This document shows positions 11,204-54,499 of a stretch of 64,000 nucleotides of DNA, in pieces. Location of the stretch: positions 2,294,001 to 2,358,000 of the forward strand of contig NZ_CP016761.1 of assembly GCF_001642935.1 (NCBI RefSeq), read 5' to 3'. Origin of the DNA: Fictibacillus arsenicus. Lineage in GTDB: Bacteria > Bacillota > Bacilli > Bacillales > Fictibacillaceae. Made by a program: the position numbers and the translations under genes. Every line of letters begins with the position of its first letter. The stretch's first letter is position 1. The notes below the pieces were generated by a model, which ran no database searches, was not told where the DNA came from, and worked only from the letters and a program-made list of their open reading frames with translations.

Positions 11204-11332
11204 AGTGCAAGGTGTGTGACTCCTTCAGGAGCAACGTGTCAGGCTAAACCTCTAAATGCACGTTTTCAAGAAAGCCCATGCAGCATGCCCCGCGGAAAGC
11301 GAGCACCTGGAGCGGAGAACAACTACTTTCAA
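11204..11332 (+). repeat. Dispersed structured repeat, copy A (decayed)
   Basis: Begins near GTGCAAGGTG and ends GCACCTGGAGCGGAGAACAACT. The right end is intact, with the GCCCCGCGGAAAGCGAGC core. The left half is degenerate and the internal hairpin is lost. Same orientation as copy B, 75 nt away. Confidence 0.75.
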
Positions 11333-11406
11333 CTACCCACAAAGTCATACACAAACAAGCTACATACATCTTTTGTTTATTGCATTAAATATATTGCTCC
11401 TTGAAT

Positions 11407-11546
11407 AGTTGATTGGAGCAGAAGGTGCGAGACTCCGGCGGGCTCAGCGTGACAGGTGAGACACCTAATGGCGCAAAGTGCCTAGGTGGCTCACCGCATG
11501 CCCCGCGGAAAGCGAGCACCTGGAGCGGAGAACAACTACTTTCAAA
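11407..11546 (+). repeat. Dispersed structured repeat, copy B (short type)
   Basis: Starts AGTTGATTGGAGCAGAAGGTGC and ends GCACCTGGAGCGGAGAACAACT, so AGTTG and AGGTGC are inverted at the ends. The inner hairpin has three stacked stems, GGTGAG/CTCACC, CACCTA/TAGGTG and GGCGC/GTGCC, around an AAA loop. Confidence 0.85.
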
Positions 11547-11575
11547 ACAGCTTAAAGAACCCACAAAAAAACACC

Positions 11576-11606
11576 AAAAAAAAGACTCCTGGTTATAGGA
11601 GTCTCA
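11576..11606 (-). terminator. spoIVA terminator
   Basis: AGACTCCTATAACCAGGAGTCT followed by nine T on the minus strand, just after the spoIVA stop. Confidence 0.9.
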
Positions 11607-11609
11607 AAG

Positions 11610-13088
11610 TTATAAAATAATGGCAATTAAACCGCCTGATCCCTCATTAATAATACGTTCAAGCGTCTCTTTTAATTTATATCTTGCATTTTCCGGCATT
11701 AATGAAATCTTTCCTTGTATTCCTTCTCTTACAATAGAATTTAAGGAGCGTCCAAAGATATCAGAATTCCATATTGACAGTGGATCTTCTTCAAAATCCT
11801 GCATTAAATATCTTAGCATTTCTTCACTTTGTTTCTCTGTTCCAATAATCGGTGCGAATTCGGATTCCACATCAACTTTAATCATATGGATCGAAGGTGC
11901 GATAGCCTTAAGTCTAACCCCGAATCTGGAGCCCTGACGGATAATTTCCGGCTCATCCAAGCTCATATCGGTGATAGCAGGAGCAGCAATTCCATATCCA
12001 GTTTGCTTCACCATTCTTAGCGCATCTGCCACTTGATCATACTCTGTCTTTGCATACGCAAATTCCTGCATAAGTTGAAGAAGATGATCTTTTCCTCGAA
12101 TTTCGACCCCAACAACCTCTTTTAAGATCTGATCGTACAAGTAATCCGGTGCAAAAAGATCGATTTCTGCAATCCCTTGCCCCATTTCAATCCCTGCTAG
12201 TCTTGCATCATCAATAAAGTCATAGTTTGCGAAGAAGCCTACCACTTTATCAACATCGCGCAGACGTTTAATATCTTGAACTGTTTCTCTTACTGCTTCT
12301 TCATAGCTTTCACGCAGCCAATGATTCTCTCTTAGCACCATTACCCAGCTTGGAAGATTCACATTTACTTCTAATACCGGGAACTCGTATAAAGCTTCAC
12401 GAAGTACATTGTTAATATCGTGTTCCGTCATCCCCTCAACACTCATTGCAAGTACTGGAATGTCATACTTCTCACATAGTTCATTACGAAGCTGCTGTGT
12501 ATCCGGATGGTGCGGATGAGTTGAATTGATCAGCATTATGAACGGTTTTCCTACCTCTTTTAACTCATTAACAACACGTTCTTCTGACTCTACATAATCA
12601 TATCTTGGAATTTCTCCGATTGAGCCATCCGTAGTTACGACAACCCCAAGTGTTGAATGTTCTTGAATAACTTTCCTTGTTCCGATTTCAGCCGCTTCAT
12701 GAAACGGAATCGGCTCGTCATACCAAGGTGTATGAATCATTCTAGGACCGTTTTCATCTTCGTACCCTTTTGCACTTGGAACAGCGTATCCAACACTGTC
12801 TACGAGACGGATATTTACATCAAGGCCTTCCCCAACATTAATCTTTACCGCATTGTTTGGAACAAATTTGGGTTCAGTGGTCATAATGGTGCGTCCAGCT
12901 GCACTTTGCGGCAATTCATCCTGAGCTCGCTGACGTTCTGCTTCATTTTCAATGTTAGGCAGGACTACTAGCTCCATAAATTTCTTAATGAATGTAGATT
13001 TACCCGTTCTTACTGCTCCTACTACTCCTAAGTAGATATCTCCGCCCGTCCTTTCGGCGATATCTTTAAAAATATCGATTTTTTCCAT
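11610..13088 (-). CDS. spoIVA: Stage IV sporulation protein A, spore coat morphogenetic ATPase
   Basis: SpoIVA polymerises on the forespore surface, hydrolysing ATP, and anchors coat and cortex assembly. The 492 residues match B. subtilis length exactly. They show Walker A GAVRTGKST near residue 24, a KTIMTTEP-like switch, and the invariant C terminus ending GGLIAIIL. I start at MEKIDIFKDIAERTGG, 8 nt after GGGAGGG. The 18 residues upstream overlap the promoter. Confidence 0.98.
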   Translation of the reverse strand: MEKIDIFKDIAERTGGDIYLGVVGAVRTGKSTFIKKFMELVVLPNIENEAERQRAQDELPQSAAGRTIMTTEPKFVPNNAVKINVGEGLDVNIRLVDSVGYAVPSAKGYEDENGPRMIHTPWYDEPIPFHEAAEIGTRKVIQEHSTLGVVVTTDGSIGEIPRYDYVESEERVVNELKEVGKPFIMLINSTHPHHPDTQQLRNELCEKYDIPVLAMSVEGMTEHDINNVLREALYEFPVLEVNVNLPSWVMVLRENHWLRESYEEAVRETVQDIKRLRDVDKVVGFFANYDFIDDARLAGIEMGQGIAEIDLFAPDYLYDQILKEVVGVEIRGKDHLLQLMQEFAYAKTEYDQVADALRMVKQTGYGIAAPAITDMSLDEPEIIRQGSRFGVRLKAIAPSIHMIKVDVESEFAPIIGTEKQSEEMLRYLMQDFEEDPLSIWNSDIFGRSLNSIVREGIQGKISLMPENARYKLKETLERIINEGSGGLIAIIL

Positions 13089-13140
13089 TCGTTTCCCTCC
13101 CGATCCAAATAAAGTTCCGGATGCTAGTCTTGGACAATAC

Positions 13141-13169
13141 ATCGTATGATTTTGTCCTATTGATTATGA
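13141..13169 (-). promoter_or_regulatory. Candidate sigma-E promoter of spoIVA
   Basis: Minus strand TCATAAT, 14-nt spacer, CATACGAT, ending about 50 nt before the spoIVA start. This fits the sigma-E pattern (ATA-type -35, CATAnnnT -10). B. subtilis spoIVA is transcribed by sigma-E. Confidence 0.6.
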
Positions 13170-13290
13170 CAAAGGAACGGAAATTTTTATTGGAACCTCT
13201 TTTCTCTGTTGTATAGTTCCATTAAAACGGGAGGGCGCACTACTGTGCCTACCGATGAAACTATAAAGCTTGTTTCGTTATAAGGATTTC

Positions 13291-13343
13291 CAAAAAAAAT
13301 CTCTCCGCCTTTTCTATGAATGTATTAGAAAAAGGGAGAGTTC
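13291..13343 (-). terminator. yphF terminator
   Basis: CTCTCC-CTTTTTCTA and TAGAAAAGGCGGAGAG form a long stem, with eight T on the minus strand, immediately after the yphF stop. Confidence 0.85.
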
Positions 13344-13347
13344 ATGC

Positions 13348-14058
13348 CTATTTTATAAAAAAAACAGGCTCATTGTTTTCGACTTTATAGGGAACTGAAT
13401 AGACCGGTACAAAATAGGAATGTTCTGCTAGCAGATGGCGGATATCTTCGTGCTTGTCCAATTCATCTTTATAGCTCTCGATCGCAGGTTTTAAGTCTTT
13501 TCTATAATCTATAAAAATTTTTGCATCGCCGTTTACCATCATAGGCAATTTCTTGCCCGTAAAAGGGCTGGTAACGAAAGGATCTTTTTTAAATCCTAAT
13601 TTTTTATAATCAAGCGTGTATCTTCCTTGTTCCTCAATCTTCTTAAACGGAGGATAACGGTGTTTATCCATATAGATGTTTAACGCAACCTGTACATCCT
13701 GAATTTTATCTGTTAAAACTAGATCTGCCAGTTTAACAGTTGGGTTTGTTTCGACATCTATCAGTACATATTGGAATGTTCCGCCTTTTTCATAAGAATT
13801 ACCAGGCGGTTCCTGCATATATTTTGGAACGAGTTTATTAAAATCAATTAAATATTTTTGATAGATATCTGTGTCCGCTTCTTTTGTTTTAATAGGCAAT
13901 ACACCAGTATCTTTTTGAAAGTTGTCAACAGCCGTCTGTACAGCTGTGATCTGATCCTGATAAGGTATGCGGTTTTGCAGCTTTCGTTCTTCAGGATATA
14001 GACATCCTGAGAGAGTTAAAAGGATAAGCAGTAAAGGAATCAGCCATTTTTTTTGCAA
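13348..14058 (-). CDS. yphF: YphF-like lipoprotein of unknown function
   Basis: 236 residues with a lipoprotein signal: a hydrophobic LLLILLTLSGC lipobox puts the lipid cysteine near residue 19. The remainder is soluble, with no catalytic motif I recognise; it resembles B. subtilis YphF in the same place (spoIVA-yphF-yphE). The start is TTG, 8 nt after GGAGGAG. It forms a pair with yphE 14 nt upstream. Confidence 0.8.
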   Translation of the reverse strand: MQKKWLIPLLLILLTLSGCLYPEERKLQNRIPYQDQITAVQTAVDNFQKDTGVLPIKTKEADTDIYQKYLIDFNKLVPKYMQEPPGNSYEKGGTFQYVLIDVETNPTVKLADLVLTDKIQDVQVALNIYMDKHRYPPFKKIEEQGRYTLDYKKLGFKKDPFVTSPFTGKKLPMMVNGDAKIFIDYRKDLKPAIESYKDELDKHEDIRHLLAEHSYFVPVYSVPYKVENNEPVFFIK

Positions 14059-14072
14059 ATTGATCTCCTCCT

Positions 14073-14273
14073 CTACCCTTGTACAGGTCCGCTAAAAACG
14101 ACGATTATAATTAGTATTCCAGCCACTATCATACAGATCCATGCGAAAAAAGAAACGGCTCCCTGTATAACGCCAGATAGTTTAGAACGGCTGAACATGA
14201 TTGAAAAAACTGCAATAAACATTAGTCCGATGGCTGATAGTGCCACCCACATTTTCAATAAACCTTCACTCAT
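14073..14273 (-). CDS. yphE: YphE-like small membrane protein (DUF2768 type)
   Basis: 66 residues with two hydrophobic segments (MWVALSAIGLMFIAVFSI and ICMIVAGILIIIVVF). Position next to yphF matches B. subtilis yphE. Function unknown. Confidence 0.78.
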   Translation of the reverse strand: MSEGLLKMWVALSAIGLMFIAVFSIMFSRSKLSGVIQGAVSFFAWICMIVAGILIIIVVFSGPVQG

Positions 14274-14468
14274 ATGTATCCTCCTTGTCCACAGCGTACA
14301 TTATAGCATAATTTGATCTATTTCTTTAAACTTCATTTCGTATAGAAATAAAACTGGGCTTATCTCATACGCACTTCCTGGTCAGTTGACGTATTCCTTG
14401 CTTATAAAACAGTTTCAGCTAACGAAAGTGTGTTTTGGTGAAATACCCCTACGGGTAGTGAAACAAGA

Positions 14469-14575
14469 ATTCCCACGGTAACATGCTATAATCCCACGTT
14501 AGTTTATTTTTTTCTCACATTAATTTAAATAATCACACGTTAATTGAAAAATAGCCACGAGTCGACACACCCTGA
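14469..14575. repeat. Second helically spaced degenerate repeat array, motif CCACGTTAA
   Basis: In the 455-nt yphE-spoVIF gap, five CCACGTTAAtt-like units recur, with the CAC(G/A) at 14474, 14495, 14516, 14536 and 14556: steps of 21, 21, 20 and 20 nt. The motif is unrelated to that at 3883 but the spacing is the same. The remainder of the gap (14274-14468) shows nothing else I can support. Confidence 0.55.
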
Positions 14576-14619
14576 CAAATTCCGCGCGTTAGATACCCCT
14601 CACCTCACGCTCATAAGAC

Positions 14620-14650
14620 AAAAAAACACCCGGCAGCAACCGGGTGTTGG
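14620..14650 (-). terminator. spoVIF terminator
   Basis: ACACCCGGTTGCTGCCGGGTGT followed by seven T on the minus strand. Confidence 0.9.
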
Positions 14651-14728
14651 ACTAAATACTCCTTTTTTTCGTTCATTAACTTATTAATCAGACGAAGAAT
14701 AAACTGTTAACAGCTTTAATACAGCCGC

Positions 14729-14989
14729 CTATTTTCCTTCGAACATTTTAGATAGAGTTGCCAAATCTAGAGGGATGTTATTATTCAAAACAGCCTGAAC
14801 GATCTGGTCTTCTTTCTGTTTCGTGACAGCTACCCCAGCCATAGAAGATACTTGGGAAATCAGCATTCGAATCGTGCGCTCATCACGTAAATTAGAACCG
14901 CTTACTGATTGTGCAAGTTTGAAAATATCGTCCTTTTTAACGCTCGTTTTTTTCTCGATCTTGTCAAAAAATTGTTGATCACGTTCCAC
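14729..14989 (-). CDS. spoVIF: Stage VI sporulation protein F-like
   Basis: 86 residues, charged and helical, beginning MERDQQFFDKIEKKTSVKKDDIFKLA. This matches the SpoVIF (YjcC-family) small coat-assembly protein. I use a GTG start at 14989, 7 nt after GGAGGAGG; the frame upstream (MGGGLQ) reads through the ribosome site. It stands alone with its own terminator. Confidence 0.85.
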   Translation of the reverse strand: MERDQQFFDKIEKKTSVKKDDIFKLAQSVSGSNLRDERTIRMLISQVSSMAGVAVTKQKEDQIVQAVLNNNIPLDLATLSKMFEGK

Positions 14990-15100
14990 CTGAAGTCCTC
15001 CTCCCACTTCCTTTTCATCCCTATCGTATGCAGCATTACAAGAAGGGTGAAAAGAAAAAAGGCGATTGCCTAAATATTTTTAGACACCCGCCTATTCGGA

Positions 15101-16126
15101 CTAGCTTTTTAAGGATGAAACATCTTCAACTTCATGTGTTCGAGTTCGCTGCATCAGCTCATCTACGGCCTGCTTTGCGCCTTTGTTGTTAAAAAGGACA
15201 TCGTAAAGCACTTGTGTGATCGGCATTTCAACTTGCTCTCTCTTGCTTAATTCGAAAGCGGCTTGGGTTGTTCTGACTCCTTCAACGACCATTCCCATAT
15301 TATCAAGAACATCGTCGAGTGCCATCCCTTTTCCAAGCATATTGCCTGCACGCCAGTTTCTGCTATGTACACTCGTACAAGTTACAATTAAATCGCCAAT
15401 ACCCGTTAAACCTGAAAAAGTTAGAGGATTAGCTCCCATATGGGTTCCAAGACGTGCAATTTCCGCAAGTCCTCTGGTGATCAATGCTGCCTTAGCGTTA
15501 TCTCCGTAGCCTAATCCATCAGATAGACCTGCCCCTAGAGCGATGATATTTTTTAGCGCACCGCCAAGCTCAACACCAATTACATCAGGGTTCGTGTAGA
15601 CACGGAAATTTTGGTTAATAAACAAATCTTGAACTTTTTCTGCAGTTTCAATTTTTTCAGATGATACAGTAACAGTCGTTGGCTGTCTTAAAGAAACTTC
15701 CTCCGCGTGGCTTGGGCCCGAAAGCACAACCACTGCTTCTAGAAGCGACGCAGGCAGCTCTTCTTCAATGATCTCTGAAATTCTTTTATATGTACCAGGT
15801 TCAATACCTTTGCTCGCGTGAACGATCGTGACTTTACGAGTTAATGAATTCTTCAGCTGGCCGAGGACATCCCTCATCGCTTTTGTAGGAGTAACGAGAA
15901 CGATGATATCTGCACCTTCTATACATTCTTCAAGCTTTACAGAAGCTTTTATACTTTTAGGAAGCTCAATACCAGGCAAGTATTTCTCGTTGCGATGTTC
16001 TTCATTAATCTCAGATACTTGTTCTTCTCTGCGTCCCCATAAGCGGACATTGTGACCATTATCAGCTAATACGATAGCAAGAGCTGTCCCCCAGCTTCCA
16101 GCCCCTAATACAGCAACATTATCCAT
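15101..16126 (-). CDS. gpsA: Glycerol-3-phosphate dehydrogenase [NAD(P)+]
   Basis: Makes sn-glycerol-3-phosphate for phospholipids. The 341-residue protein has the dinucleotide-binding [10 protein letters not shown] at residue 7, SGPSHAEEV near residue 145, and the substrate lysine in [11 protein letters not shown]. It is directly upstream of spoVIF and downstream of plsY, so two successive steps of phospholipid synthesis are adjacent. Confidence 0.97.
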
Positions 16127-16146
16127 TCATGTCACACTCCAAATTA

Positions 16147-16728
16147 TTAAATTTTGCGTTCGGTCCCTTTTAGCAGCCTTTGTATATTTCCCCTATGACG
16201 CCAGACTGAAACTGCTGAGATACAACCGCCCGTTACAATCGCAAAAAATGGCAGGCTATAATGATACAGCATAAAGAAAGGTGTCAGGATTAAAAAGACG
16301 ATCGAACCTAGAGAAACAAACCGGCTAATCCAAATCGTAAGAATAGCAATTATACCTGCTATTAGAGATGGAAAGAAAGATATAGCTGCAAAAACACCGA
16401 TTGTTGTTGCAACTCCTTTCCCGCCCTTGAATCCAAAGAATACTGGGTAATTATGACCAATTACAGCTGCAAAGCCGCACAGTATTGCGATATTTGGACT
16501 AAATCCTAGCCATAATGGTACCAAAACAGATATTATCCCTTTCATACTGTCTAATAGCAAGACAGCGATGGCAGGTCCCTTTCCAAGCACTCGTAATGTG
16601 TTGGTGGCACCTGCATTGCCGCTTCCATGGTTTCTGATATCTTCATTTTTTATCAGCTTTGTAAGCAAATAACTAAAGCTGATGGAACCTAAACAATAAG
16701 ATAATAAGATGAGGAGAATCCACATCAT
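16147..16728 (-). CDS. plsY: Glycerol-3-phosphate acyltransferase PlsY
   Basis: Membrane acyltransferase using acyl-phosphate to acylate glycerol-3-phosphate. 193 residues with several membrane segments and the three family motifs: GSISFSYL, HGSGNAGATNTLRVLG, and GFKGGKGVATT with HNYPVFFGF. It lies 20 nt upstream of gpsA, which supplies its substrate. B. subtilis has plsY elsewhere. Confidence 0.95.
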   Translation of the reverse strand: MMWILLILLSYCLGSISFSYLLTKLIKNEDIRNHGSGNAGATNTLRVLGKGPAIAVLLLDSMKGIISVLVPLWLGFSPNIAILCGFAAVIGHNYPVFFGFKGGKGVATTIGVFAAISFFPSLIAGIIAILTIWISRFVSLGSIVFLILTPFFMLYHYSLPFFAIVTGGCISAVSVWRHRGNIQRLLKGTERKI

Positions 16729-16737
16729 ACTATTACC

Positions 16738-18051
16738 TTAATCATTTTTCTTTCTTGCAAAAATTTTGATTGGTGTACCGACAAACCCGAATGTTTCACG
16801 AATTCTGTTCTCTAAAAACCTCTTATAAGAGAAGTGGAAAAGCTCAGGATCATTAACGAAAATAACAAATGTAGGCGGTTTAGAAGCTACTTGAGTTGCA
16901 TAGTTTATCTTTAACCGTTTTCCATTATCCATCGGTGCAGGATTCATCGCAACTGCATCCATGATAACCTCATTTAATATGTTCGTCTGAACTCTTAATG
17001 AATGGTTTTCGGCAACCTGATTAATCACCGGGAATAGATGATGAAGTCTCTGTTTCGTTAATGCAGATACGAAAACGATCGGTGCATAAGATAAGTAAAG
17101 GAAATGATCACGGATCTTCTGCTCGAATTTCTGCATCGTTTTATCATCTTTTTCGATGGCATCCCATTTATTCACTACAATAACGACCGCTTTTCCTGCT
17201 TCATGAGCAAAGCCAGCGACTTTTTTATCCTGCTCGATGATGCCTTCTTCTGCATCAATGACCATCAAGACGACATCTGAACGTTCAATCGCTTTCATAG
17301 CTCGCATAACGCTGTATTTTTCAGTAGTCTCGTATACTTTTCCGCGCTTGCGCATTCCAGCTGTATCGATAATTACATATTTTTGATCTTCCTTCTCAAA
17401 ACTGGAATCAATTGCATCACGAGTTGTACCTGCAATGTTGCTTACAATAACGCGTTCTTTTCCTAAAATTGCGTTTACTAAAGAGGATTTACCTACATTC
17501 GGTCTGCCGATTAATGAGAAATAAATCGTGTCATCGTCTTTTTCTTCTTCAACAGTTTCAGGAAAATGACTGACAACTTGATCCAGAAGATCTCCAAGTC
17601 CGATTCCATGAGTACCAGACACACCAATCGGTTCACCCATTCCTAGACTGTAAAATTCATATAACAATTCTTTTCTTTCCGGGTTATCAATTTTGTTCAC
17701 ACCTAAAACAACAGGCTTTTTTGAACGGAAAAGCATTTTGGCTACTTCTTCATCGGCTGCTGTAATTCCATTCATGCCATCTACTAAGAACAAGATAACA
17801 TCGGCTTCTTCAATAGCTAGTTCTGCTTGTTCCTTCATCTGGCTCATAAACGGTGCATCACTAATTTCTATTCCACCTGTATCGATCAAGTTAAATTCGG
17901 TATTCAGCCATTCGGCGGAACTATAGATACGGTCACGGGTAACACCTGGCATATCTTCTACAATGGATATGCGGTCACCGGCAATTCTGTTAAATATAGT
18001 AGATTTCCCTACATTTGGTCTTCCTACTATAGCTAAAACTGGTTTAGTCAT
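16738..18051 (-). CDS. der: Ribosome-assembly GTPase Der (EngA)
   Basis: Double GTPase needed for 50S maturation. 437 residues with two G domains, each with GRPNVGKS (residues 9 and about 183), DTGG/DTAGM and NKxD motifs, then a KH-like C-terminal domain. I start at [16 protein letters not shown], after AAGGGAAG; the upstream 13 codons lack a ribosome site. Confidence 0.97.
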
Positions 18052-18199
18052 GTTTGACACTTCCCTTTTTTTCCTGATCAAATCAATCATTTCTTTATGA
18101 ATTCATCATTACTTTGTTAAATTACAATAAAATTAGACAAGTCCACTTATTTTAGCAAATTCTTGAGATCTTAGACAACTTAATAATAATAGGTTTCCA

Positions 18200-18802
18200 T
18201 CAAATCGGCTTTGCTGGATTAACCTTTTTATAAGAGACGCGCCTTAATTTTTTGAACATATCTACCAATATTACCATACAAAATAGAATCATTGTAGTGG
18301 AAGCAAGCAAATCCAATACAAACATCGAACCTATTTCTAAATATCCTGTAAGTCTTAAGATCAATAACTGATATAATGAATCTCCAATAAAAATACCGAT
18401 TAAGGGGACATAAAATAAATCAATATTTCTTTTTAAAATAAGAAACAGCATAGCTGCTAGAAAAATAATCAACAAATACTTTTTATCGATGAACAGTTTA
18501 GCGGGATCATACAGCGCAAAAATCTGAAGCATTACATAGCTTACTGCTATAATAAAACTTACTGCTAAATAATAGAGGAGCTCACCTGTACTGCGGATAA
18601 CATGAACAAGCCCTATGATTAAAAAGTAAGCAAAAGCTGCGTTAATTGTACCCAATGAAAATGAAATATCATAACCAGACAATATTATGCCTGGAAGCAA
18701 AATGAAAATCACTGTATTTCTGAATTGATTTTTTTCAAATAAGAAGGTTGTTACGACCCAGCCGATCCACATGAACCAATAAAAAAGTATGCCATCATTC
18801 AT
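18200..18802 (-). CDS. yphA: YphA-like membrane protein
   Basis: 200 residues with about six hydrophobic segments and no catalytic motif. Length and place (upstream of der, downstream of ypfD) match B. subtilis YphA. The ATG at 18802 follows GAGGTGAAATTC; the alternative GTG lies inside the ribosome site. Function unknown. Confidence 0.8.
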   Translation of the reverse strand: MNDGILFYWFMWIGWVVTTFLFEKNQFRNTVIFILLPGIILSGYDISFSLGTINAAFAYFLIIGLVHVIRSTGELLYYLAVSFIIAVSYVMLQIFALYDPAKLFIDKKYLLIIFLAAMLFLILKRNIDLFYVPLIGIFIGDSLYQLLILRLTGYLEIGSMFVLDLLASTTMILFCMVILVDMFKKLRRVSYKKVNPAKPI

Positions 18803-22612: not shown

Positions 22613-22632
22613 GCTTCTTTTATTTGGATCAT

Positions 22633-22843
22633 TTCTAAAAGATTGTTGCTTTATCATTTATTTGTAGTTTCTTCTTGCCAAGTTGATTGGAGCGGAAGGT
22701 GCGAGAATCCTGCGGGATCAGCGGACAGGTGAGACTCCTAAGGGCGCAAAGCGCGAAGAGGCTCACCGCACGCCCCGCGGAAAGCGAGCACCTGTAGCGG
22801 AAATCAACCACTTCAAATTGAAACAAAGTTTACGAAAACAGCC
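22633..22843 (+). repeat. Dispersed structured repeat, copy C (short type)
   Basis: Outer arms TTTCTAAAAGATTGTTGC and a CAAAGTTTACGAAAACAGCC end; inner ends AGTTGATTGGAGCGGAAGGTGC and GCACCTGTAGCGGAAATCAAC. The inner hairpin pairs GGTGAG/CTCACC and GCGC/GCGC around AAA. Confidence 0.88.
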
Positions 22844-34030: not shown

Positions 34031-34292
34031 TGCTGTTTTGGTATACTTTGTTGCTCTTAAAAGTGGTTAATTTCCGCTCCAGGATTGTCACTTTCCGCGA
34101 GGCGTGCGGTGAGCTCCCTCGGCGCGTTGCGCCATTAGAAGTCTCACCTACAAGGAAGTTTGTATGGTCGCATGCCTTGCAAGAAGTATAATCAGTTGGC
34201 TGGCACGCAGGAGTCTCGCACCTTGCTCTCCAATCAACTTGCAATTGAAGAAATTGAAAATGACCAAAAGCACAATCATTTAGAGAAGTGCC
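34031..34292 (-). repeat. Dispersed structured repeat, copy D (intermediate type)
   Basis: Minus-oriented. Outer arms TGCTGTTTTGGTATACTTTGTTGC and a GCACAATCATTTAGAGAAG end. The inner hairpin (minus strand) pairs GGTGAG/CTCACC and GGCGC/GCGCC around AAC. About 55 nt are inserted beside it (TGCAAGGCATGCGACC, minus strand) that recall the long-type copies. It fills most of the 368-nt ypbE-ypbF gap. Confidence 0.85.
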
Positions 34293-41163: not shown

Positions 41164-41460
41164 GGCTGTTTTAGCAAACTTTGTTGCTCTTGAAAGTGGT
41201 TGATTTCCGCTCCAGGATGCTCGCTTTCCGCGGGGCGTGCGGTGAGCCCTGGTGAATGAAAGATCTATGAAGTGCTGCTCCTGCGTCTACAAGAATATCC
41301 TGCCGGAGCTAGCTTCCTCGTCGCATGCCTTGCGAGAAGAATACTCAGGTAGCTGGCACGCTGATCCCGCTGGAGTCTCGCACCTTGCACTCCAATCAAC
41401 TTGCAAATGAAGAGAATGAAAAAATGACCCCAAAAGCAACAATCTTTTAGAGAAGAGCCT
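41164..41460 (-). repeat. Dispersed structured repeat, copy E (long type)
   Basis: Outer arms GGCTGTTTTAGCAAACTTTGTTGC and GCAACAATCTTTTAGAGAAG; inner ends TTGATTTCCGCTCCAGGATGC and GCACCTTGCACTCCAATCAACT. It carries the long central insert (around GCATGCCTTGCGAGAAG, AGCTGGCACGCTGATCCCGC). Lies downstream of the ECF gene, inverted relative to copy F. Confidence 0.9.
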
Positions 41461-42490: not shown

Positions 42491-42788
42491 AAGCTGTTTT
42501 CTAAAAGATTGTTGTTTTTGAGTCTCGTTTCTCGCTTCATTTGCAAGTTGATTGAAGCGCAAGGTGCGTGCCTACCTCTGAGAAGCTTCTCGCTAGGCAT
42601 GCGACGAGGAAGCTCACATCGGTAGCATTTACTTGTAGACGCAGGAGCAAGGATACTTCCATGAAGCGGTCAGGTGAGACTCCTAATGACGCATAGCGGC
42701 AGGAGGCTCACCGCACGCCCCGTGGAAAGCGAGCATCCTATAGCGGAAATCAACTATTTTAAAAAGCAACAATGGTTGCGAAAACAGC
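42491..42788 (+). repeat. Dispersed structured repeat, copy F (longest type) in a 5' leader
   Basis: Outer arms AGCTGTTTTCTAAAAGATTGTTG and GCAACAATGGTTGCGAAAACAGCT; inner ends AGTTGATTGAAGCGCAAGGTGC and GCATCCTATAGCGGAAATCAACT. It has both the long insert and the hairpin GGTGAG/CTCACC with CTCCT/AGGAG and CGC/GCG. It lies between the riboswitch terminator and the lipoprotein gene. Confidence 0.9.
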
Positions 42789-42807
42789 TTTCTTTTAAAT
42801 CACCAAA

Positions 42808-42894: not shown

Positions 42895-43088
42895 CCCCCC
42901 TATCCTCGTAGGCCATGTCATGTACAAAACAGGCAGGTCTCCTGGCTCTTGATCATCGTCCCCTAACGCCTTCCCGTTTTCACAGTGGCAGATCAATTAG
43001 GTTTCTCACAATTACAGTGGCGGGACCGCAACGGAATTTAACCGTTTTCCCTATTATGCTTGTCCGATTAGGACAGCACCTGTTTAAA
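42895..43088 (-). promoter_or_regulatory. Cobalamin riboswitch
   Basis: The minus strand has the B12 box AGCCAGGAGACCTGCC at 42947-42932 and GCCACTG at 42989-42983. It also has GGTCCCGCCACTG at about 43026-43015 and the P1-side AACAGGTGCTGTCC near 43085. All are consensus parts of the cobalamin aptamer. Followed by a terminator, so it probably stops transcription when B12 is bound. Confidence 0.92.
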
Positions 43089-43117
43089 CACTTATGAAAT
43101 TTTCTTTTTACAATCCA

Positions 43118-47084: not shown

Positions 47085-48689
47085 CTATTTAGTATTAGAT
47101 TCCTTATCAACTAAAGCAGTTAAGCTTGTCTTTTCACTAAGGAAATCTAAATCTTTTTTCAAGCCATACCAGTTCTTATTCGTGTGAGCTGCTGCCCACA
47201 CTCCATCTTGATTTTGTTTGATCCAAATTCTTCTATAGTTCCAATATAATCCTTGCGTAACACCTATCATAAAAATTACTCCGCCAAGAGCAATAATCCA
47301 GAGCGTATGGTCTTTTCTAATCGTCAGAGCCGTTAAGTCCTTTGTCTCTATACCTGCAAAGGACATTTTAAATTGATTCTCACCAGCTTCTATGTTCTTT
47401 TGAATCCCTACAAAAGCTTTTTCACCATTTGGAGTTTCAGGAGAATACATTGAAAATACAAAAGCAGGGTTATCAGGCAAATTATTTACTGTTGAAGGCT
47501 GATTTTGCTCATTAAGAATAAAGTTTGGAAAATACTCCTCAATCTCTACTCTATACCCATTTCCCAAATCATACTTTTTCTCCGGTTCATGAAGATCAAC
47601 AGTCAGCTTTCCAAATTTTTTGCCAGTTGCCTTCTCCTCTAATTCGAAACTCATTTTACTGAATTCATTCAGCTTAAAATCAGTTTGATAGAGAGCAAAT
47701 GAATCAAATTTAAAAGGTTCATTTACACGGATTTCACCGTCTTTTACTTTGACTAACTCAGGCTCCTCTCCTATTGTATGATTAGGCTTTGTTTTGTATA
47801 GTGTCACATTGCTTTGATAGTTTTTAGCTACTTCACCATCTACTGTACTCAGTGCACTATTAAACTTCTTTTCTTCCTTATCATACATTTCGAGAATAAA
47901 TTCTTTGTTTTCTAAGTAATATTGTCCTTCTTCACTCTTTGTCCCAGGGATAGACGCTTTCTCGCCTTCTCTGACCCACAAAATATCATCTACATACATG
48001 CCGGGAAAGAATCTGAGCATTGCACCTGTTAAGAAGATAATTAGTCCGACATGGTTCACATATGCGCCCCACCTTGAAAAACGTCCTTTTTCAGCAAAGA
48101 GATTGCCTTTTTCTTCTCGCACCTTATACCGTAATGATTCGAGCGTATATTTAACGTCTTCTAACTCAACTTCCTTGCTTACAGAGAACAAGCGCTGGTT
48201 CTTCATGAATTCATCATGCCTTGTTACTCTTTGTGTTTTTAAGGCTTTATAAAGCGGGATTCCGCGATCAAGGCTCGCAATTATAATAGAAAGTCCTAAC
48301 ATTCCCAGAAGTATGATAAACCACCATGATCCGTAAAGATTATGGAAGCCCAATAAATAATAGATTAATCCAAGGGTTCCGTATTCGCTTTCATAATGAG
48401 TCGCGGGATCTACATTTGGCGGGATAAACGTTTCTTGAGGAAAAATTGTCCCGATTGCAGCAGCGACCAGTATGATGATAATCAGCCACACTCCAACTCT
48501 TACAGAAGAAAAGAAGTTCCAGGTATGGTCTACAAACGTTTTTTTATACGTTTGCGATCTTCTGGCGCTTCCTTCATAACGCATGCTTGTTAGTACTTCA
48601 ACGTCGTTATCCAGTGGTTTCCCACAGGCTTGGCAAAGGCTTGTACCGTAAGGATTGGAGTGGCCGCATTCACATGTTATTGATTGCAT
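47085..48689 (-). CDS. resB: Cytochrome c biogenesis protein ResB
   Basis: 534 residues. The N terminus has a small cysteine pair module ([18 protein letters not shown]), then three membrane helices, a large extracellular domain (about 230-450) and a last helix ([20 protein letters not shown]). Partner of ResC. It lies 12 nt after resA and 28 nt before resC. Confidence 0.95.
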
Positions 48690-48701
48690 CTTTTCACCCC
48701 G

Positions 48702-49226
48702 TTACGGCTTGATTTTTTCCATAAAGGAAATAATTTTCTCTTCAGACAGTGATTCACTAGTTCGTCCCACCACTTTCCCATTTTTATCAATAAGAATCGT
48801 AGTTGGAATAGGGCCTATACCGTATGCTTTCGTTACTTCTCTTTGTTTATCCATCGGTATTGGAAAGGTCAGACGGTAACGATCTGCAAAGTTTTTTACT
48901 GATACATTTGTTTCACTGACATTTACAGCAAGAATTTCTACACCTTGTTTTTTGTAGGTTTCATATTGTCTTTGCATATAGGGCATTTCCCGTTCGCATG
49001 GCTTGCACCACGTTCCCCAAAAATTTAAGAAGACACCTTTTCCCCGGTAATCTTCAAGTTCAACCCGGTTGCCATTAAGATCAGTAAGTACAAAATTAGG
49101 AGCAGTGTCTCCCTTTTTTATGTAAGTACCATTTTCTTCATAGATACTGTTATAGATTGTATAACCGATCGCTAATACTAAGATGGCAAGCAAAGCAGAG
49201 CGAAACCATAATCTTTTTCTCTTCAA
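48702..49226 (-). CDS. resA: Thiol-disulfide oxidoreductase ResA
   Basis: 174 residues, N-terminal membrane anchor and a thioredoxin fold with GTWCKPCEREMP (CxxC). Reduces apocytochrome c cysteines before haem attachment. Starts the resABC gene run. Confidence 0.96.
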   Translation of the reverse strand: MKRKRLWFRSALLAILVLAIGYTIYNSIYEENGTYIKKGDTAPNFVLTDLNGNRVELEDYRGKGVFLNFWGTWCKPCEREMPYMQRQYETYKKQGVEILAVNVSETNVSVKNFADRYRLTFPIPMDKQREVTKAYGIGPIPTTILIDKNGKVVGRTSESLSEEKIISFMEKIKP

Positions 49227-49267
49227 AAGTTATCCGCTCCTTTTAGCCGCTTCCATTTTACTATAAC

Positions 49268-49296
49268 TTGAAAAAAAAGCCTATCTACGGCTTTTT
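49268..49296 (-). terminator. rluB terminator overlapping its stop codon
   Basis: AAAAAAAAGCCGTAGATAGGCTTTTTTTT; the rluB stop TAG lies in the hairpin. Confidence 0.75.
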
Positions 49297-50027
49297 TTTG
49301 ACGTTTGTGTGACAGCCATATTTCTTAGCTGCTTTATTTCATGTGGAGTTAATTCTCTAAACTCACCTGGATTAAGTCCTCTAAGATCAAGAAATCCATA
49401 TCTTTCGCGCTTCAGCTTCATAACAGGACATCCGATCGCTTCTAGCATTCGCTTGACCTGACGGTTCTTTCCTTCATGTATCGTTAATTCTACGATTGCT
49501 GTTCCTTTCTTCTTATCGATAGAAGTAACTTTCACTTTAGCAGGTGCAGTCATACCATCTTCCAGGCGAATCCCTCGTTCAAGCTGTTTAATCTTTTCTC
49601 GCGGTGGAATTCCTTTCACTTTAGCAATATACACTTTATCTAACTGGTACCGTGGATGCATCAGCACATTCGCGAATTCTCCGTCATTTGTCATGATAAG
49701 TACACCTGTAGTGTCATAATCTAATCTGCCAACCGGAAATACTCGCTGTTCGATGATATCTTTGAAATAATCAGCAACTGTTTTGCGTCCTTTATCATCA
49801 GATACTGCTGTTATTACTCCAGAAGGTTTATACATCAAAAAATAAACGGGCTGTTCCCGTTGAATTTGAATTTCGTTCACTTCAATTTTATCTTTTGTAC
49901 CGACTTTTGTGCCGAGTTCGGTCACAACATTTCCGTTCACTTTCACTTTGCCTTCACGGATTAATTCCTCTGCTTTTCTTCGGGAAGTTATACCGCTCTG
50001 AGCAATCACTTTTTGCAATCGTTCCAT
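49281..50027 (-). CDS. rluB: 23S rRNA pseudouridine synthase RluB
   Basis: 248 residues: S4 RNA-binding domain at the N terminus (MERLQKVIAQSGITSRRKAEELI), then the synthase domain with catalytic Asp in GRLDYDTTGVLIMTNDGE and KNRQVKRMLEAIG. Located between resA and spmB as in B. subtilis. Confidence 0.95.
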   Translation of the reverse strand: MERLQKVIAQSGITSRRKAEELIREGKVKVNGNVVTELGTKVGTKDKIEVNEIQIQREQPVYFLMYKPSGVITAVSDDKGRKTVADYFKDIIEQRVFPVGRLDYDTTGVLIMTNDGEFANVLMHPRYQLDKVYIAKVKGIPPREKIKQLERGIRLEDGMTAPAKVKVTSIDKKKGTAIVELTIHEGKNRQVKRMLEAIGCPVMKLKRERYGFLDLRGLNPGEFRELTPHEIKQLRNMAVTQTSKKSRR

Positions 50028-50087
50028 GATTTCACCTCATGTCTCATCATACCTTCATTATTCGTAATTCTCAACCACGATAAACGT

Positions 50088-50114
50088 AAAAAGAGCCTTA
50101 AAGGCTCTTTTTAT
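50088..50114 (-). terminator. dacB-spmAB terminator
   Basis: AAAAAGAGCCTTTAAGGCTCTTTTT, after spmB. Confidence 0.85.
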
Positions 50115-50119
50115 TCGTT

Positions 50120-50653
50120 TTATGAGTAAAAAAGAAGTGATATCGCAGCGATGGATGCTAAAAATCCGATTAAGTCTGCTAATAGACCAACCTTTAAAGC
50201 ATATTTCATTTTTTTAATTCCCACCGCCCCAAAATACACTGTCAGTACGTAAAATGTCGTATCCGTACTTCCTTGTATGGTTGAAGCCAACCTTCCAATA
50301 AAAGAGTCGGGTCCATGAGTTGCGATGAGATCAGAAGTCATACCAAGTGCACCTGTGCCTGAAATCGTTCTCATCAATCCAAGCGGAACAACTTCTGCTG
50401 GTATATGAAACAATGAAAATATGGGTCGCATAGCGAGCATAACATAATCTAATGCTCCCGAAGCTCTGAAAACAGATATGGCTACTAACATACCAACTAA
50501 GAATGGAATAATATTTATCGCAATGGAAAACCCTTCTTTTCCACCTTCAACAAAAGTTTCATAGGTTGGAACTTTTTTGTAGGTTCCATAGAGCAATATA
50601 AAACCAATCAAAAGAGGAATAAACCAAATCGAAAATGATTGGACGAAATTCAT
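50120..50653 (-). CDS. spmB: Spore maturation protein B
   Basis: 177-residue polytopic membrane protein of the nucleoside-transporter-like Gate family, with ISGTGALGMTSDL and GSTDTTFYVLTVYFGAVGI. Affects spore core dehydration in B. subtilis. Adjoins spmA without a gap. Confidence 0.94.
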   Translation of the reverse strand: MNFVQSFSIWFIPLLIGFILLYGTYKKVPTYETFVEGGKEGFSIAINIIPFLVGMLVAISVFRASGALDYVMLAMRPIFSLFHIPAEVVPLGLMRTISGTGALGMTSDLIATHGPDSFIGRLASTIQGSTDTTFYVLTVYFGAVGIKKMKYALKVGLLADLIGFLASIAAISLLFYS

Positions 50654-51247
50654 CTATTTTCCTCCCTTTTGCAAGGAGCGGTAATAGTAATACCTGTCGA
50701 TCAGAATAGCTCCAACCGTTGCAACAGCTGTCGCTAAAAGAGTCGGGGCTACGATATCAGTTGGAGATTGAGAGTTATAGCTCATTCTTATAGCTATGAT
50801 TGTGGTAGGAATCAATGTAATGCTGGACGTATTAATAGCAAGCAATGTGATCATCGAACGGCTAGCCTCGTTCTTTCCGCCATTAAGTATCTTAAGCTGT
50901 TCCATTGCTTTTATACCCATTGGTGTGGCTGCGTTTCCCAGTCCTAGCAGATTTGCTGCCATGTTTGATAAAATGTATCCCTGTGCCGGATGATCTTTTG
51001 GAATATCAGGAAATAGCCATTTAACAATTGGACGGAAAAGGTATGCAAGGACTTCTAACAATCCGCCTTTTTCTGCTATTTTCATAATCCCAAGCCAAAA
51101 CACGAGAATACTTATCATAGCAAAACTCAAAGTTACTGCTTCCTTTGCACTTGTGAAAATTGCTGCATTTACTTTATCCATGTTGCCATTAAAAGCTGCA
51201 ACAGCAAATCCAATCACCATCATACCGACCCAAATGTAATTCACCAT
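50654..51247 (-). CDS. spmA: Spore maturation protein A
   Basis: 197-residue polytopic membrane protein with NMAANLLGLGNAATPMGIKAM and TLLAINTSSITLIPTTIIAIR, typical of SpmA. Overlaps dacB by 7 nt. Confidence 0.95.
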   Translation of the reverse strand: MVNYIWVGMMVIGFAVAAFNGNMDKVNAAIFTSAKEAVTLSFAMISILVFWLGIMKIAEKGGLLEVLAYLFRPIVKWLFPDIPKDHPAQGYILSNMAANLLGLGNAATPMGIKAMEQLKILNGGKNEASRSMITLLAINTSSITLIPTTIIAIRMSYNSQSPTDIVAPTLLATAVATVGAILIDRYYYYRSLQKGGK

Positions 51248-52410
51248 GAGCCATTATGCTCCCTTGCTGCAAAGAATAGCTGATTCAGCATGTCTTTAAA
51301 TGTTGTCCAAATGCCATCTTTATGAGGTTTTATTAATGCTTTTCCATCATAATAAAGGGGTAAATCTGCTATTCTTAAACCATTTAAATCTATAAAATAC
51401 CTTCCTACGGGCTTAGGAATATCTTCTTCTTCCCATTCACCAGACTTGGGCAATTTATATAAATGAATGGAAGAAGAGATCTGCTTAATCTCTTCTTTCA
51501 TTAACGGATAAGAAAAAGTACGGTTTGCTTCAACTTTTCCTTTATATCCTCTATCTTTAATACTTGATACTTTACCTTCTTTAATAAGCTCGGTCATTTG
51601 AAAAGAGTGAAATCCCCACTCGAACATATTTCTATGATCTTCCCAGTCATCAGGATCATTTAGTGTAACTGCGATAAGCTCCATTCCGTCTTTTTCGGCT
51701 GTTGAAACCAGTGTCCTTTTTGCGCGTTTTGTATAGCCTGTTTTCCCGCCAGTGGAATTTTCATATAGCTTCAGCATTTTATTTTTGTTTCTCCACACTC
51801 TGTCCCACTTTTCACCGGTTTGCTCAGAACGGTATACCTTCGTTGATGATATATCTTTAAACATATCGTTGTTCATAGCATATTTAGTCAAAAGTGCCAT
51901 ATCATAGGCAGTTGAATAATGGTCTTCATGTGTATCGAGTCCATGAGGATTTCTAAAGCGTGTATGTTTCATCCCTATTTCTTCTGCCTTTTGATTCATA
52001 AGATATGCAAATCCATCTAAGCTTCCGCCTACATGTTCTGCAATTGCAACAGCAGAATCATTTCCTGATCTCAGCATCAATCCATAAACCAGGTCTGTTA
52101 ATGGGATTTTCTCACCAGGTTTTAAATAAAGAGAAGATCCTTCTGTTCTCGCAGCATGATCGGTTATGGTTACAGTATCCTGCATCTTTCCTGATTCAAT
52201 GGCAAGGATAGCAGTCATGATTTTTGTTATACTTGCAATTCTCATGGGACGATGTTCATTCCGGCCATATAAAACTCTCCCTGAGGATTGTTCCATCAAT
52301 ACAGCTGCTTTTGCTGATACACCAGGTTCAGCTTTTGCTTCTTGCGGGAAAACTGCAAGTATAAGCGAGCATATTACAATGTAAATATGAGGTGAAATGA
52401 TTTGTTTCAT
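51241..52410 (-). CDS. dacB: Sporulation D-alanyl-D-alanine carboxypeptidase (PBP5*)
   Basis: 389 residues: signal peptide, then S11-family active sites ASITKIM (SxxK), RSGNDS (SxN) and GGKTGYTKRA (KTG), and a C-terminal membrane-associated region. Trims cortex peptide side chains. Forms the dacB-spmA-spmB operon as in B. subtilis. Confidence 0.95.
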   Translation of the reverse strand: MKQIISPHIYIVICSLILAVFPQEAKAEPGVSAKAAVLMEQSSGRVLYGRNEHRPMRIASITKIMTAILAIESGKMQDTVTITDHAARTEGSSLYLKPGEKIPLTDLVYGLMLRSGNDSAVAIAEHVGGSLDGFAYLMNQKAEEIGMKHTRFRNPHGLDTHEDHYSTAYDMALLTKYAMNNDMFKDISSTKVYRSEQTGEKWDRVWRNKNKMLKLYENSTGGKTGYTKRAKRTLVSTAEKDGMELIAVTLNDPDDWEDHRNMFEWGFHSFQMTELIKEGKVSSIKDRGYKGKVEANRTFSYPLMKEEIKQISSSIHLYKLPKSGEWEEEDIPKPVGRYFIDLNGLRIADLPLYYDGKALIKPHKDGIWTTFKDMLNQLFFAAREHNGSW

Positions 52411-52441
52411 TCAAAATCCCGCCCTTTAGGTGTTTTGTAAA

Positions 52442-52469
52442 AGTTTATGCAAACAAGGACAGGTTATGA
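52442..52469 (-). promoter_or_regulatory. Candidate sigma-E promoter of dacB
   Basis: Minus strand TCATAAC, 13-nt spacer, CATAAACT, about 30 nt before dacB. It resembles the candidate at spoIVA. dacB is sigma-E dependent in B. subtilis. Confidence 0.5.
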
Positions 52470-52490
52470 ATGGGATTTACTTCCGCTCTT

Positions 52491-53045
52491 TTATTGACTA
52501 GGAAAGAAACGATGTTTTTCACCATGACTATTTTCATAATCAGTAAGTTCCATTAATGCTTTTTCTTCTGCTGTAATTCTTACACGGAGCATCAAGATAT
52601 TTAATATTGTAAAAATCAAAGCGGTAACATTAGCGCCGAAAATCAATGGGATCACTAAAAGCTCCATTGATACGACTAAGTAATTAGGATGTCTTATAAA
52701 ACGATATGGTCCTTTAGCCACAACTTCAGCACCTGGAAGAAGAATGATTTTTGTATTCCAGAATACTCCTAAAGAGGTGATCGCCCAAACCCGAATTACT
52801 TGTGCAATTAAAAACAATACAAACGGAATCATCCACCATGTAGGAGAAATTGCATTAAAGAACATTACTTCAGTAAATAAAAAGAGAAAAAATGAGGCAT
52901 GCATAGCTACCATCCATTTATAATGGCTGCTCCCGACCTCAACTGCCCCCTTTGATCGGAGAGTTTTTTCATTCTTTTTGGCGATTTTCACTTCTGCAAG
53001 TCTCTGGATTATTAACAAAGTCCAGAAAATGAGAAACCAAGTCAC
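52491..53045 (-). CDS. ypbQ: Isoprenylcysteine methyltransferase-like protein YpbQ (BpsB)
   Basis: 184 residues, five or so membrane helices, with the ICMT-family GPYRFIRHPNYLVVSMELL motif. In B. subtilis the homologue methylates the alkylpyrones made by the type III PKS encoded beside it. GTG start at 53045 after GGAGG, one nt from the bcsA stop, so coupled. Confidence 0.9.
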   Translation of the reverse strand: MTWFLIFWTLLIIQRLAEVKIAKKNEKTLRSKGAVEVGSSHYKWMVAMHASFFLFLFTEVMFFNAISPTWWMIPFVLFLIAQVIRVWAITSLGVFWNTKIILLPGAEVVAKGPYRFIRHPNYLVVSMELLVIPLIFGANVTALIFTILNILMLRVRITAEEKALMELTDYENSHGEKHRFFPSQ

Positions 53046-53046
53046 G

Positions 53047-54126
53047 TTACTTCCTCCATTCAACTAACAAAAGCTCTGAAGAGAAACCAGGGCCAAGTGC
53101 TGCCATAATTCCTAAATCACCTTCGTTTTGTTTTATCTCCATAAATTGCTTCAAAACATAAAATACAGTAGCAGAAGACATGTTGCCGTTTGACATAAGT
53201 ACATCTCGTGAAATATCAGTTTTGGAAAGAGGCAGGCCAAGAGCATCAACATATGCCTGAAGTACTTTTTTTCCGCCGGGATGAGCAATGAAGTTTTTAA
53301 TCTGTTCTCCCGTTAAATGATTTTGGTTTAGAAACTCATCAACGTTGGGTTTTAGCCAAGTTCGTATTACATTAGGAATATCGCGTGAAAAAACAACATA
53401 TAGACCTGTATCTTTTACCTCCCATCCCATTACATCTTCAGAATGAGGCTTTAAAGTAGACATGGTATCTACTATATAAGGCTTTAATTCTGCGGATGTA
53501 TGTGCATCTGATTCGTCTCCGCATATAAGTGCACATGCAACACCATCTGCAAATAAGGAGGTACCTACAAGATTGCTTTTAGAAAAATCCTCATGCTGAA
53601 AAGTCAAGCTGCATAGTTCTACACTCAATACGATCACGTTTGACTTCGGATATGCTTTACAATAATCAAAAGCTCTCGAAAAGCCGGATGCACCACCTGC
53701 ACATCCTAAGCCCCAGATAGGTATTCGTTTCGTATGAGAGGAAAAAGGAAGCATATTCATAATTCTTGCTTCAATACTCGGTGTAGATATCCCAGAACTG
53801 GAAATAAAAAATATTGCGTCAATATTTTCATACGGGATTATTGGACTGTCTGCGGGCCCTATGCATTTTTGTATGCATTCTGCTCCGAGATTCGTAGCAA
53901 AGTCTATGTATAAATCATTTTTTTCCTGAAAACTTCTCTTTTCTTTAAACCATTCAATCGGCATTACAAAATATCTTGATGAAATCTCACCATTTTGAAA
54001 AACTTTTAATAAACGTTCGATATCTGAAAATGCATCCTGAAATAAGTTCCTTGCAAATTCCATCGTTTCTTTTTGCGATAGTTTGTGCGGAGGATTAACG
54101 GTTTCGACTGCTGCTATTCTGGGCAA
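53047..54126 (-). CDS. bcsA: Type III polyketide synthase (BcsA/BpsA, alkylpyrone synthase)
   Basis: 359 residues, chalcone-synthase fold. Catalytic triad visible: Cys in GLGCAGGASG, His in FIAHPGGKKVL and Asn in MSNGNMSSATV; C-terminal GPGFSSEL. Makes aliphatic pyrones from fatty acyl starters in B. subtilis. Starts with TTG after GGAGAGAG. Here the pair lies between scpAB and dacB. Confidence 0.93.
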   Translation of the reverse strand: MPRIAAVETVNPPHKLSQKETMEFARNLFQDAFSDIERLLKVFQNGEISSRYFVMPIEWFKEKRSFQEKNDLYIDFATNLGAECIQKCIGPADSPIIPYENIDAIFFISSSGISTPSIEARIMNMLPFSSHTKRIPIWGLGCAGGASGFSRAFDYCKAYPKSNVIVLSVELCSLTFQHEDFSKSNLVGTSLFADGVACALICGDESDAHTSAELKPYIVDTMSTLKPHSEDVMGWEVKDTGLYVVFSRDIPNVIRTWLKPNVDEFLNQNHLTGEQIKNFIAHPGGKKVLQAYVDALGLPLSKTDISRDVLMSNGNMSSATVFYVLKQFMEIKQNEGDLGIMAALGPGFSSELLLVEWRK

Positions 54127-54207
54127 AAGATCTCTCTCCTTCGACTCGTTATACTTATTTTTAATTTACCCTTAACCCCCTATTTAAAACAGAACGGACT
54201 TCATAAA

Positions 54208-54499
54208 GGCTGTTTTCGTATACATTGTTGCCATTTAAAGTAGTTGATTTCCGCTCCAGGATGCTCGCTTTCCGCGGGGCGTGCGGTGAGCCCCAGTGGA
54301 AGATATATAAAGTGCGGCTCCTGCGTCTACAATAAAACCCTGCGGAACTAGTTTCCTCGTCGATGCCTTGCGAGAAGAATACTCATGTTAGCTGGCACGC
54401 TGATCCCGCAGGAGTCTCGCACCTCCACTCCAATCAACTAGTCGTAGATGCATACTTTAAAAAAAGGTTCAAAAGCAACAATCTTTTAGAAATTAGCCT
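54208..54499 (-). repeat. Dispersed structured repeat, copy G (long type)
   Basis: Outer arms GGCTGTTTTCGTATACATTGTTGC and GCAACAATCTTTTAGAAAT; inner ends AGTTGATTTCCGCTCCAGGATGC and CTCCAATCAACT. The insert closely follows that of copy E (GCGTCTACAA, GATGCCTTGCGAGAAGAATA, AGCTGGCACGCTGATCCCGC). It fills most of the 417-nt gap after bcsA. Confidence 0.9.

Follow-up and report, generated by a model that had tools for sequence, protein, structure and literature searches.

A miniature mobile element of Fictibacillus arsenicus, probably of IS1595 type, with a folded core that is also found in other transposons

The 64-kb stretch of the Fictibacillus arsenicus chromosome analysed here (the window; NZ_CP016761.1 2294001-2358000, genome of 4,055,461 bp) contains a dispersed repeat located between long open reading frames (ORFs, as called without annotation). 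The first-pass annotation, made from the letters of the window, had listed seven copies, all of them between genes. For its inner part, 31 copies were combined in a covariance model, R1 (132 positions, 40 pairs); two of the window's seven are among these 31, the copy at 11407 and that at 22633 (as L001). A search of the window with R1 recovered all seven places with 146 to 47 bits and E values of 2e-34 to 2e-9; the matches start at 22681, 11407, 41198, 54242, 42627, 34065 and 11194, two antisense self-hits being set aside. The intergenic position holds with respect to long ORFs, but ORFs of at least 80 aa, whose reality is doubtful, overlap the copies at 11204, 34031 and 42492. The copies, together with an eighth remnant, are as follows.

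4015..4056, + strand: eighth remnant, right half of a core, seen as an inverted match to 34059-34100 (79%)
11194..11324, + strand: degenerate core without recognisable outer arms (R1 46.6 bits; arms not above control)
11407..11537, + strand: intact core (R1 142.4 bits), outer arms not recognisable above control
22626..22843, + strand: full short-form element, 218 bp, core at 22681-22809, exact 8-bp duplication TTTTATTT on both sides
34031..34292, - strand: full intermediate-form element, 262 bp, with arms and R1 match; duplication 6/8
41164..41459, - strand: full long-form element, 296 bp, with arms and R1 match; 9-bp flanks TTTTCGCTA on both sides; site empty in relatives
42492..42789, + strand: full long-form element, 298 bp, with arms and R1 match; exact 8-bp duplication TTCTTTTA; site empty in some relatives
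54208..54498, - strand: full long-form element, 291 bp, with arms and R1 match; duplication 6/8

The element consists of a left arm GGCTSTTTTCTAAAAGATTGTTGC, a spacer, the core NGTTGATT...AATCAACN, a short spacer and a right arm GCAACAAAGTTTGCGAAAACAGCC, the consensus of the outer arms being GGCTSTTTTC-N7-TTGTTGC. Both arms exceed the 99% level of random windows in five of the seven copies (22626, 34031, 41164, 42492 and 54208); the shared arms first described for all seven could not be found in the copies at 11204 and 11407, where no arm rises above that level. The five full elements are composed of core and arms with no transposase inside, and their lengths, from 218 to 298 bp, bear out the short, intermediate and long forms that had been distinguished. 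In the long forms (41164, 42492, 54208 and the orthologues in the genomes G006 and G014), about 20 nt of the 5' side of the core are exchanged for about 100 nt. The remnant at 4015-4056 gave no R1 match at E<=1.

Seven copies proved to be far too low a number for the genome. In 20 spaced stretches of 20 kb (400 kb in total), R1 detected 27 distinct places (30 rows minus three antisense self-hits), which extrapolates to approximately 270 copies in the genome, with a mean spacing of 15 kb; the window, with a copy every 9 kb, is more densely populated. A whole-genome search gave at least 150 matches, all 150 scored candidates of 1241 being matches, and the model scan proposed in the first-pass annotation detected the core in related genomes as well. 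Among 34 copies (27 of the sample and seven of the window), both arms were recognised in 11, the right arm alone in nine, the left arm alone in five and neither in nine. The outer-arm pattern (<=1 mismatch) is present in all 18 genomes of the genus, the own genome included, with 2 to 115 matches each, and the reversed control gave none. Three tandem cores with a spacing of 226 bp were observed in another genome (G262:C1, at 2228487, 2228713 and 2228939).

Several traces of mobility were identified. From 50 copies with fuzzy arms, the 15 with exact GG...CC ends were kept for a duplication test and 35 were left out. Identical 8-bp flanks were found in seven of these 15 copies, compared with a mean of 0.67 and a maximum of five in 500 permutations; identical 7-bp flanks were found in none and 9-bp flanks in one. 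Among all 50 copies, 11 have identical 8-bp flanks. The duplicated targets are 8 bp long and AT-rich. The element at 41164 agrees in 3/8 positions in the 8-bp register, its 9-bp flanks TTTTCGCTA being identical. Orthologous gaps, whose comparison had been suggested earlier, revealed empty sites for two elements. The site of the element at 41164 is empty in G014 and G006, of the same genus, although G014 also lacks 58 bp adjoining the element, so this empty site is not perfectly clean. The site of the element at 42492 is empty in G012, G002 and G003, and is occupied by a long form in G006, a short form in G014 and an element of the opposite direction in G009; the short form at this site in G014 indicates that the forms interconvert or were exchanged. 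The full element is therefore a miniature inverted-repeat transposable element (MITE), i.e. a non-autonomous mobile element, as had been considered from the beginning.

The arms of the window repeats are those of an IS1595-family element, as follows from locus L324, in another family of the order. This locus carries a 1612-bp element with an intact 335-aa transposase (PF12762, 62 bits), the ends of which, GGCTGTTTTCG...ATTGTGGC/ATTGTTGC, contain arms that both match those of the window repeats; its flanks TTTATAAA/TTTTTAAA form a duplication in 7/8 positions. Within the order, 70 of 199 genomes, from 48 of 98 genera, have a related arm type, GGCTCTGTTAAAG-N3-ATTGTTG (<=1 mismatch). Locus L314, which is among these, contains an element with GGCTCTGTTAAA ends and two ORF pieces matching IS1595 models: the C-terminal piece matches NF033547 (80 bits) and the N-terminal piece NF050000, the IS1/IS1595 zinc domain (45 bits). 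Between these pieces of the transposase gene lies a 163-bp GGCTGTTTTC element with window-type arms, bounded on both sides by exactly the same 8 bp, AAAACAAA. Other IS1595 transposases are enclosed by GGCTNTGTTAA ends (L323 and L327), and a search with PF12762 gave matches in 11 of 60 relatives. Judging from these sequence matches, an IS1595-type enzyme probably mobilised the window repeats. The type of enzyme can thus be named, although, as regards IS1595 and ISL3, the statement that no transposase is present remains correct for the own genome; a transposase with the same ends, which might act in trans, was found in L324 and not in the own genome. Since no same-arm IS1595 transposase was found there, the local family is probably a relict.

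Two other mobilisers were considered and rejected. ISL3 elements have GG ends and 8-bp AT-rich duplications, and some of their ends begin with GGCTCT, but no ISL3 transposase is present in any of the 18 genomes of the genus, the own genome included, and the exact arm pattern is absent from 20 ISL3 loci (L031-L050). Single-copy RAYT-like Y1 genes co-occur with many carriers of the repeat; nevertheless, none of 24 Y1 loci has a core within 1.5 kb. The own genome encodes one single-copy RAYT-like Y1 transposase (L181, 3685349-3685681), and four other tested genomes of the genus have one each. By eye, the neighbourhood of L181 contains GGGG..CCCC repeats unrelated to the core. IS6 was a further candidate on account of its ends and gave way to IS1595.

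The inner part of the element, a core of about 130 nt, forms a single long hairpin that is interrupted by conserved internal loops of purines. In 104 copies from other genomes, 98 of them distinct, 94.0% of the cells form standard pairs compared with 78.1% after shuffling, and two-sided changes occur at 37 of the 40 pairs; the structured interior that had been suspected is thus stronger than claimed. The covariation score is 0.392 compared with 0.116 in shuffled data (0/500), and slid structures reach no more than 0.062. These values lean towards the structure, to which the alignment was fitted; in a MAFFT alignment of 31 own copies, two-sided changes were found in six of 40 pairs. Among the unpaired positions, GGA opposite GGA, GNA opposite GGA, and AC opposite AAG are nearly constant, and in our reading they resemble sheared G-A motifs of RNA.

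The two strands of the core are not equivalent. In 60 own-genome copies (four of 64 distinct cores, lying outside 116-136 nt, were left out), one-sided transitions at paired columns, read on the forward strand, comprise 64 that make G-U and 12 that make A-C, whereas the same classes at unpaired columns count 70 and 56 (Fisher p 3e-5); an excess of G-U is seen at 19 pairs and an excess of A-C at three. In other genomes, where 39 pairs were used and one non-Watson-Crick pair column was left out, there are 78 G-U and 22 A-C changes, with 20 pairs leaning to G-U and six to A-C; in all of these counts the copies are not fully independent. In addition, the fold of the forward strand is more stable than that of the complementary strand in 55 of 60 and in 82 of 95 copies. 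As G-U pairs are favoured on one strand, it is suggested that this strand works in the folded state, and the core probably acts as RNA of the forward strand.

The core is distributed far beyond the genus. With strict filters in both scans, R1 found it in 69 of the 299 genomes of Bacilli searched, from 27 of 119 genera; a sample of 299 genomes of the phylum gave three matches, each of them in Bacilli. Among the matches listed, an exact word of the core occurs in records of Pseudalkalibacillus, Priestia, Peribacillus, Metabacillus, Cytobacillus, Neobacillus, Mesobacillus, Lederbergia, Sporosarcina and Alkalihalobacillus. The phage collection gave no core match. Partial matches are present in 14 plasmid records, and in the three plasmid regions examined no transposase is annotated directly beside the match. 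In L160 and L161, from Bacillus and Paenibacillus plasmids, a partial core near 4001-4091 lies between gnd and a hypothetical gene; it corresponds to model positions 28-106 in L160, and a Tn3-family transposase is located about 3 kb away in L161.

The same core occurs in five frames with different ends. Apart from the arms of the window repeats, it is framed in other genera by GGCTCTGTTAAAG arms (L318-L322 and L315), by GAGGCTGGGACA arms (L101, L102, L249 and L250), by TGAGTCAATTTCAT arms (L189, where two mismatches fall in one end) and by the IS1182-type ends CAGACTGTAGACAAA or a near match (L088 and L257). The GAGGCTGGGACA ends also flank IS1182 transposases (L263 and L265), as do the TGAGTCAATTTCAT ends in L270, again with two mismatches at one end. 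Tip pattern D is short, and a scan with two mismatches gave loose matches (L180, L224 and one pair in L263), so that only individually verified ends were used. A candidate sixth frame, AGAGGGTGTCCCAAAAG in G176, was seen by eye; it gave no paired ends in the tip scan and was not counted. The element in L315 (774-2846, 2073 bp) has GGCTCTGTTAAAG ends, an exact 8-bp duplication TAAAAATA, the core and a passenger ORF of 217 aa, with no second ORF of at least 100 aa inside.

A transposase fragment beside a core matches NF033551 (IS1182) with 84 bits, which is below the whole-protein cut-off. Among 24 IS1182 loci scanned, four have the core inside the insertion sequence (IS) (L257, L260, L275 and L278), to which L252 and L088 are added. 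Among the matches listed, all 13 junctions with core and transposase not more than 400 bp apart have the core pointing away from the transposase; they come from six genomes (G249, five; G176, three; G342, two; G155, G271 and G229, one each). Four further junctions assessed by eye (L252 and L088; G249) are likewise outward, giving 17/17. Two of the three cores in G176 abut gene-internal parts, and these may be deletion derivatives. In L257, L260 and L275, the IS tip is followed by the upstream core and then by the start of the transposase, and we read the tip as able to fold into a terminator-like hairpin. A terminator-like hairpin is also the insertion site of an IS1182 element of the own genome (L258, 1397-2910), which has AAAAGCCCCTGAAAAGGGGCTTTT at either side.

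Taken together, these data make it fairly probable that the repeat is an IS1595-type MITE carrying a portable folded module, probably an RNA, that serves transposons. The first-pass annotation had also thought of a recruited regulatory or structural element of the host, and this suggestion found no support. A host-recruited regulatory, terminator or nucleoid element of the REP kind would agree with the roughly 270 copies and with 68 of 74 cores lying outside called ORFs (a crude ORF caller placed an ORF over the core in the other six). The same 74 copies, however, have no preferred orientation relative to the flanking ORFs (++ 21, -- 27, -+ 12, +- 12, two undecided), which makes a host regulatory role unlikely; in close relatives, both sites that were compared lack the element or carry a different form of it, and the single-copy RAYT-like genes are not accompanied by the core, as described above. 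A host element is thus a very improbable explanation. Another reading, that the core is itself a mobile element prone to insert inside other transposons, would account for its many frames, for the nine of 34 own-genome copies without recognisable arms, and for the situation in IS1182, where the core occupies one position between the left tip and the transposase start, being absent from L258 and present in L275 and L257. We nevertheless regard it as improbable: inspection of the flanks of 60 loci by eye revealed no duplication directly at the core edges, the target duplications are found outside the arms and not at the core, and the outward orientation at 17/17 IS1182 junctions is not expected of random insertion.

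A more serious, though still unlikely, alternative is that the core works as DNA without an RNA role, either as a long imperfect cruciform or as a subterminal protein-binding region that aids transposition or excision. The IS1182 cores are subterminal and inverted on the two sides (L252 and L275), which resembles subterminal binding sites, and the changes within groups are mostly two-sided and complementary (144, compared with 44 one-sided transitions). Against it stand the tolerance of G-U and avoidance of A-C on one strand and the conserved 3x3 purine loops, which in our reading resemble RNA motifs. A site for one transposase is opposed by the occurrence of the core with two transposase families whose ends are unrelated. 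Some observations do weigh against the transposon-serving RNA module that we favour. The core is absent from the IS1595 element in L324 despite its matching arms, and 19 of the 24 IS1182 loci have no core within 1.5 kb, one more (L258, of the own genome) having it outside the IS ends; the module is thus dispensable. In the own genome, the inward direction was seen in two cores, located 502 and 780 bp from an IS1182 transposase; the first of these is outside the IS ends. The IS1595 transposase was not found in the own genome by the PF12762 search, and among 17 other genomes of the genus it is present in only two, with GGCTATGTTAAA arms and not those of the window repeats. Within groups in other genomes the strand signal is weak (26 compared with 18 at paired and 57 compared with 97 at unpaired columns, p 0.015), and, per unpaired column, C-to-T changes are more frequent (44 over seven) than G-to-A changes (30 over 16), so that the strand asymmetry may be partly mutational. 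Everything said here on RNA is deduced from sequence.

Comparison with known systems does not place the core in a described family. Rfam (4227 families) gave no match at the places of the element at E<=1, no description of the sequence or family was found in the open-access literature searched, and in the excerpts of PMC8632094 and PMC2267715 that were compared no family could be matched to the core by description; the copies are thus not remnants of an annotated family in these sources. As in bacterial MITEs of IS elements such as IS1595, the repeats are short, lack an internal transposase, share the arms of a transposase-bearing element, have 8-bp duplications and reach a high copy number, but unlike these they carry a strongly covarying folded core that the matching IS1595 element in L324 lacks. 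REP/BIME sequences with RAYT are similarly abundant, hairpin-forming and non-autonomous, the difference being that no core lies near the Y1 genes scanned; moreover, 8-bp duplications do not fit the RAYT type of enzyme. The RNA of the IS110/IS1111 noncoding region is reportedly a guide RNA of one IS type; here too a noncoding part of an insertion sequence has an RNA role, as predicted for the core, whereas the core is common to two DDE families and MITE-like elements and nothing suggests a guide function. The class of 'mobile/repeat sequence candidates' (MRSC) defined in PMC11109978 is another similar system. Its member MRSC-65-2 is described there as a single covarying stem with a conserved UYCCGG repeat, found in diverse phyla, and the class is multi-copy, with a single long stem, strong covariation and an occasional position near transposase genes, RNA or DNA nature being left open. 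The repeat core differs in that its three matches in 299 genomes of the phylum are all in Bacilli. TYCCGG occurs inside the core in two of 30 own-genome loci (L001-L030) and in nine of 20 loci of another genus (L187-L206), and a distant relation of the core to MRSC-65-2, compared here by its description, may exist. The bcr repeats of the B. cereus group and Bhal-1 are also dispersed stem-loop forming repeats of Bacillaceae, but, compared by the description excerpted from PMC2267715, they differ in size (Bcr1, 147-167 bp; Bhal-1, 74 bp). Elsewhere in the window, complete Rfam matches were obtained for a cobalamin riboswitch (42915-43098, - strand), 125 bp from the element at 42492, and for a lysine riboswitch (59044-59220, - strand).

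The possible mode of operation of the favoured transposon-serving module might be as follows. An IS1595-family transposase would recognise the paired GGCTSTTTTC-N7-TTGTTGC arms in trans, generating 8-bp duplications of AT-rich targets. The portable module between the arms, 130 nt long and forming one long hairpin on the forward strand, is the same that occupies subterminal positions in IS1182-family elements and occurs in MITE-like elements of at least three other arm types, and it may be kept because it helps its carriers, acting as a folded RNA. This RNA would be made from the interior of the element outward to the tip and, in IS1182 elements, be closed by the tip hairpin. The step in which the module takes part would be independent of the transposase used; the module could shield the element ends from transcription running across them or control such transcription, or it could make use of a host RNA-binding factor. 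As the module would help elements with different transposases, its partner is likely to be a host factor or the transcription machinery and not a transposase. Selection would act on copies that are still moving, and the copies in the host genome would be a residue of their spread and not host regulatory sites, which fits the lack of orientation preference relative to ORFs.

The MITE itself is of an ordinary kind, and the new part is the shared, strand-specific folded module. Tentatively, it could represent a new class of transposon-owned structured noncoding RNA, in which one module is common to the unrelated DDE families IS1595 and IS1182 and to several MITE-like families across Bacilli, is directed outward at IS1182 ends and is needed for their spread or protects it; this is a possibility to which we would not yet commit ourselves. 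We know of no IS-associated RNA that is independent of one transposase. As the type of enzyme has been named, mobilisation is directly testable, and the covariance model R1 enables genome annotators to find a family whose core occurs in roughly one in four of the Bacilli genomes sampled (69/299) and yet has no Rfam family. Should the core work as RNA, this RNA would belong to transposons without being bound to one transposase.

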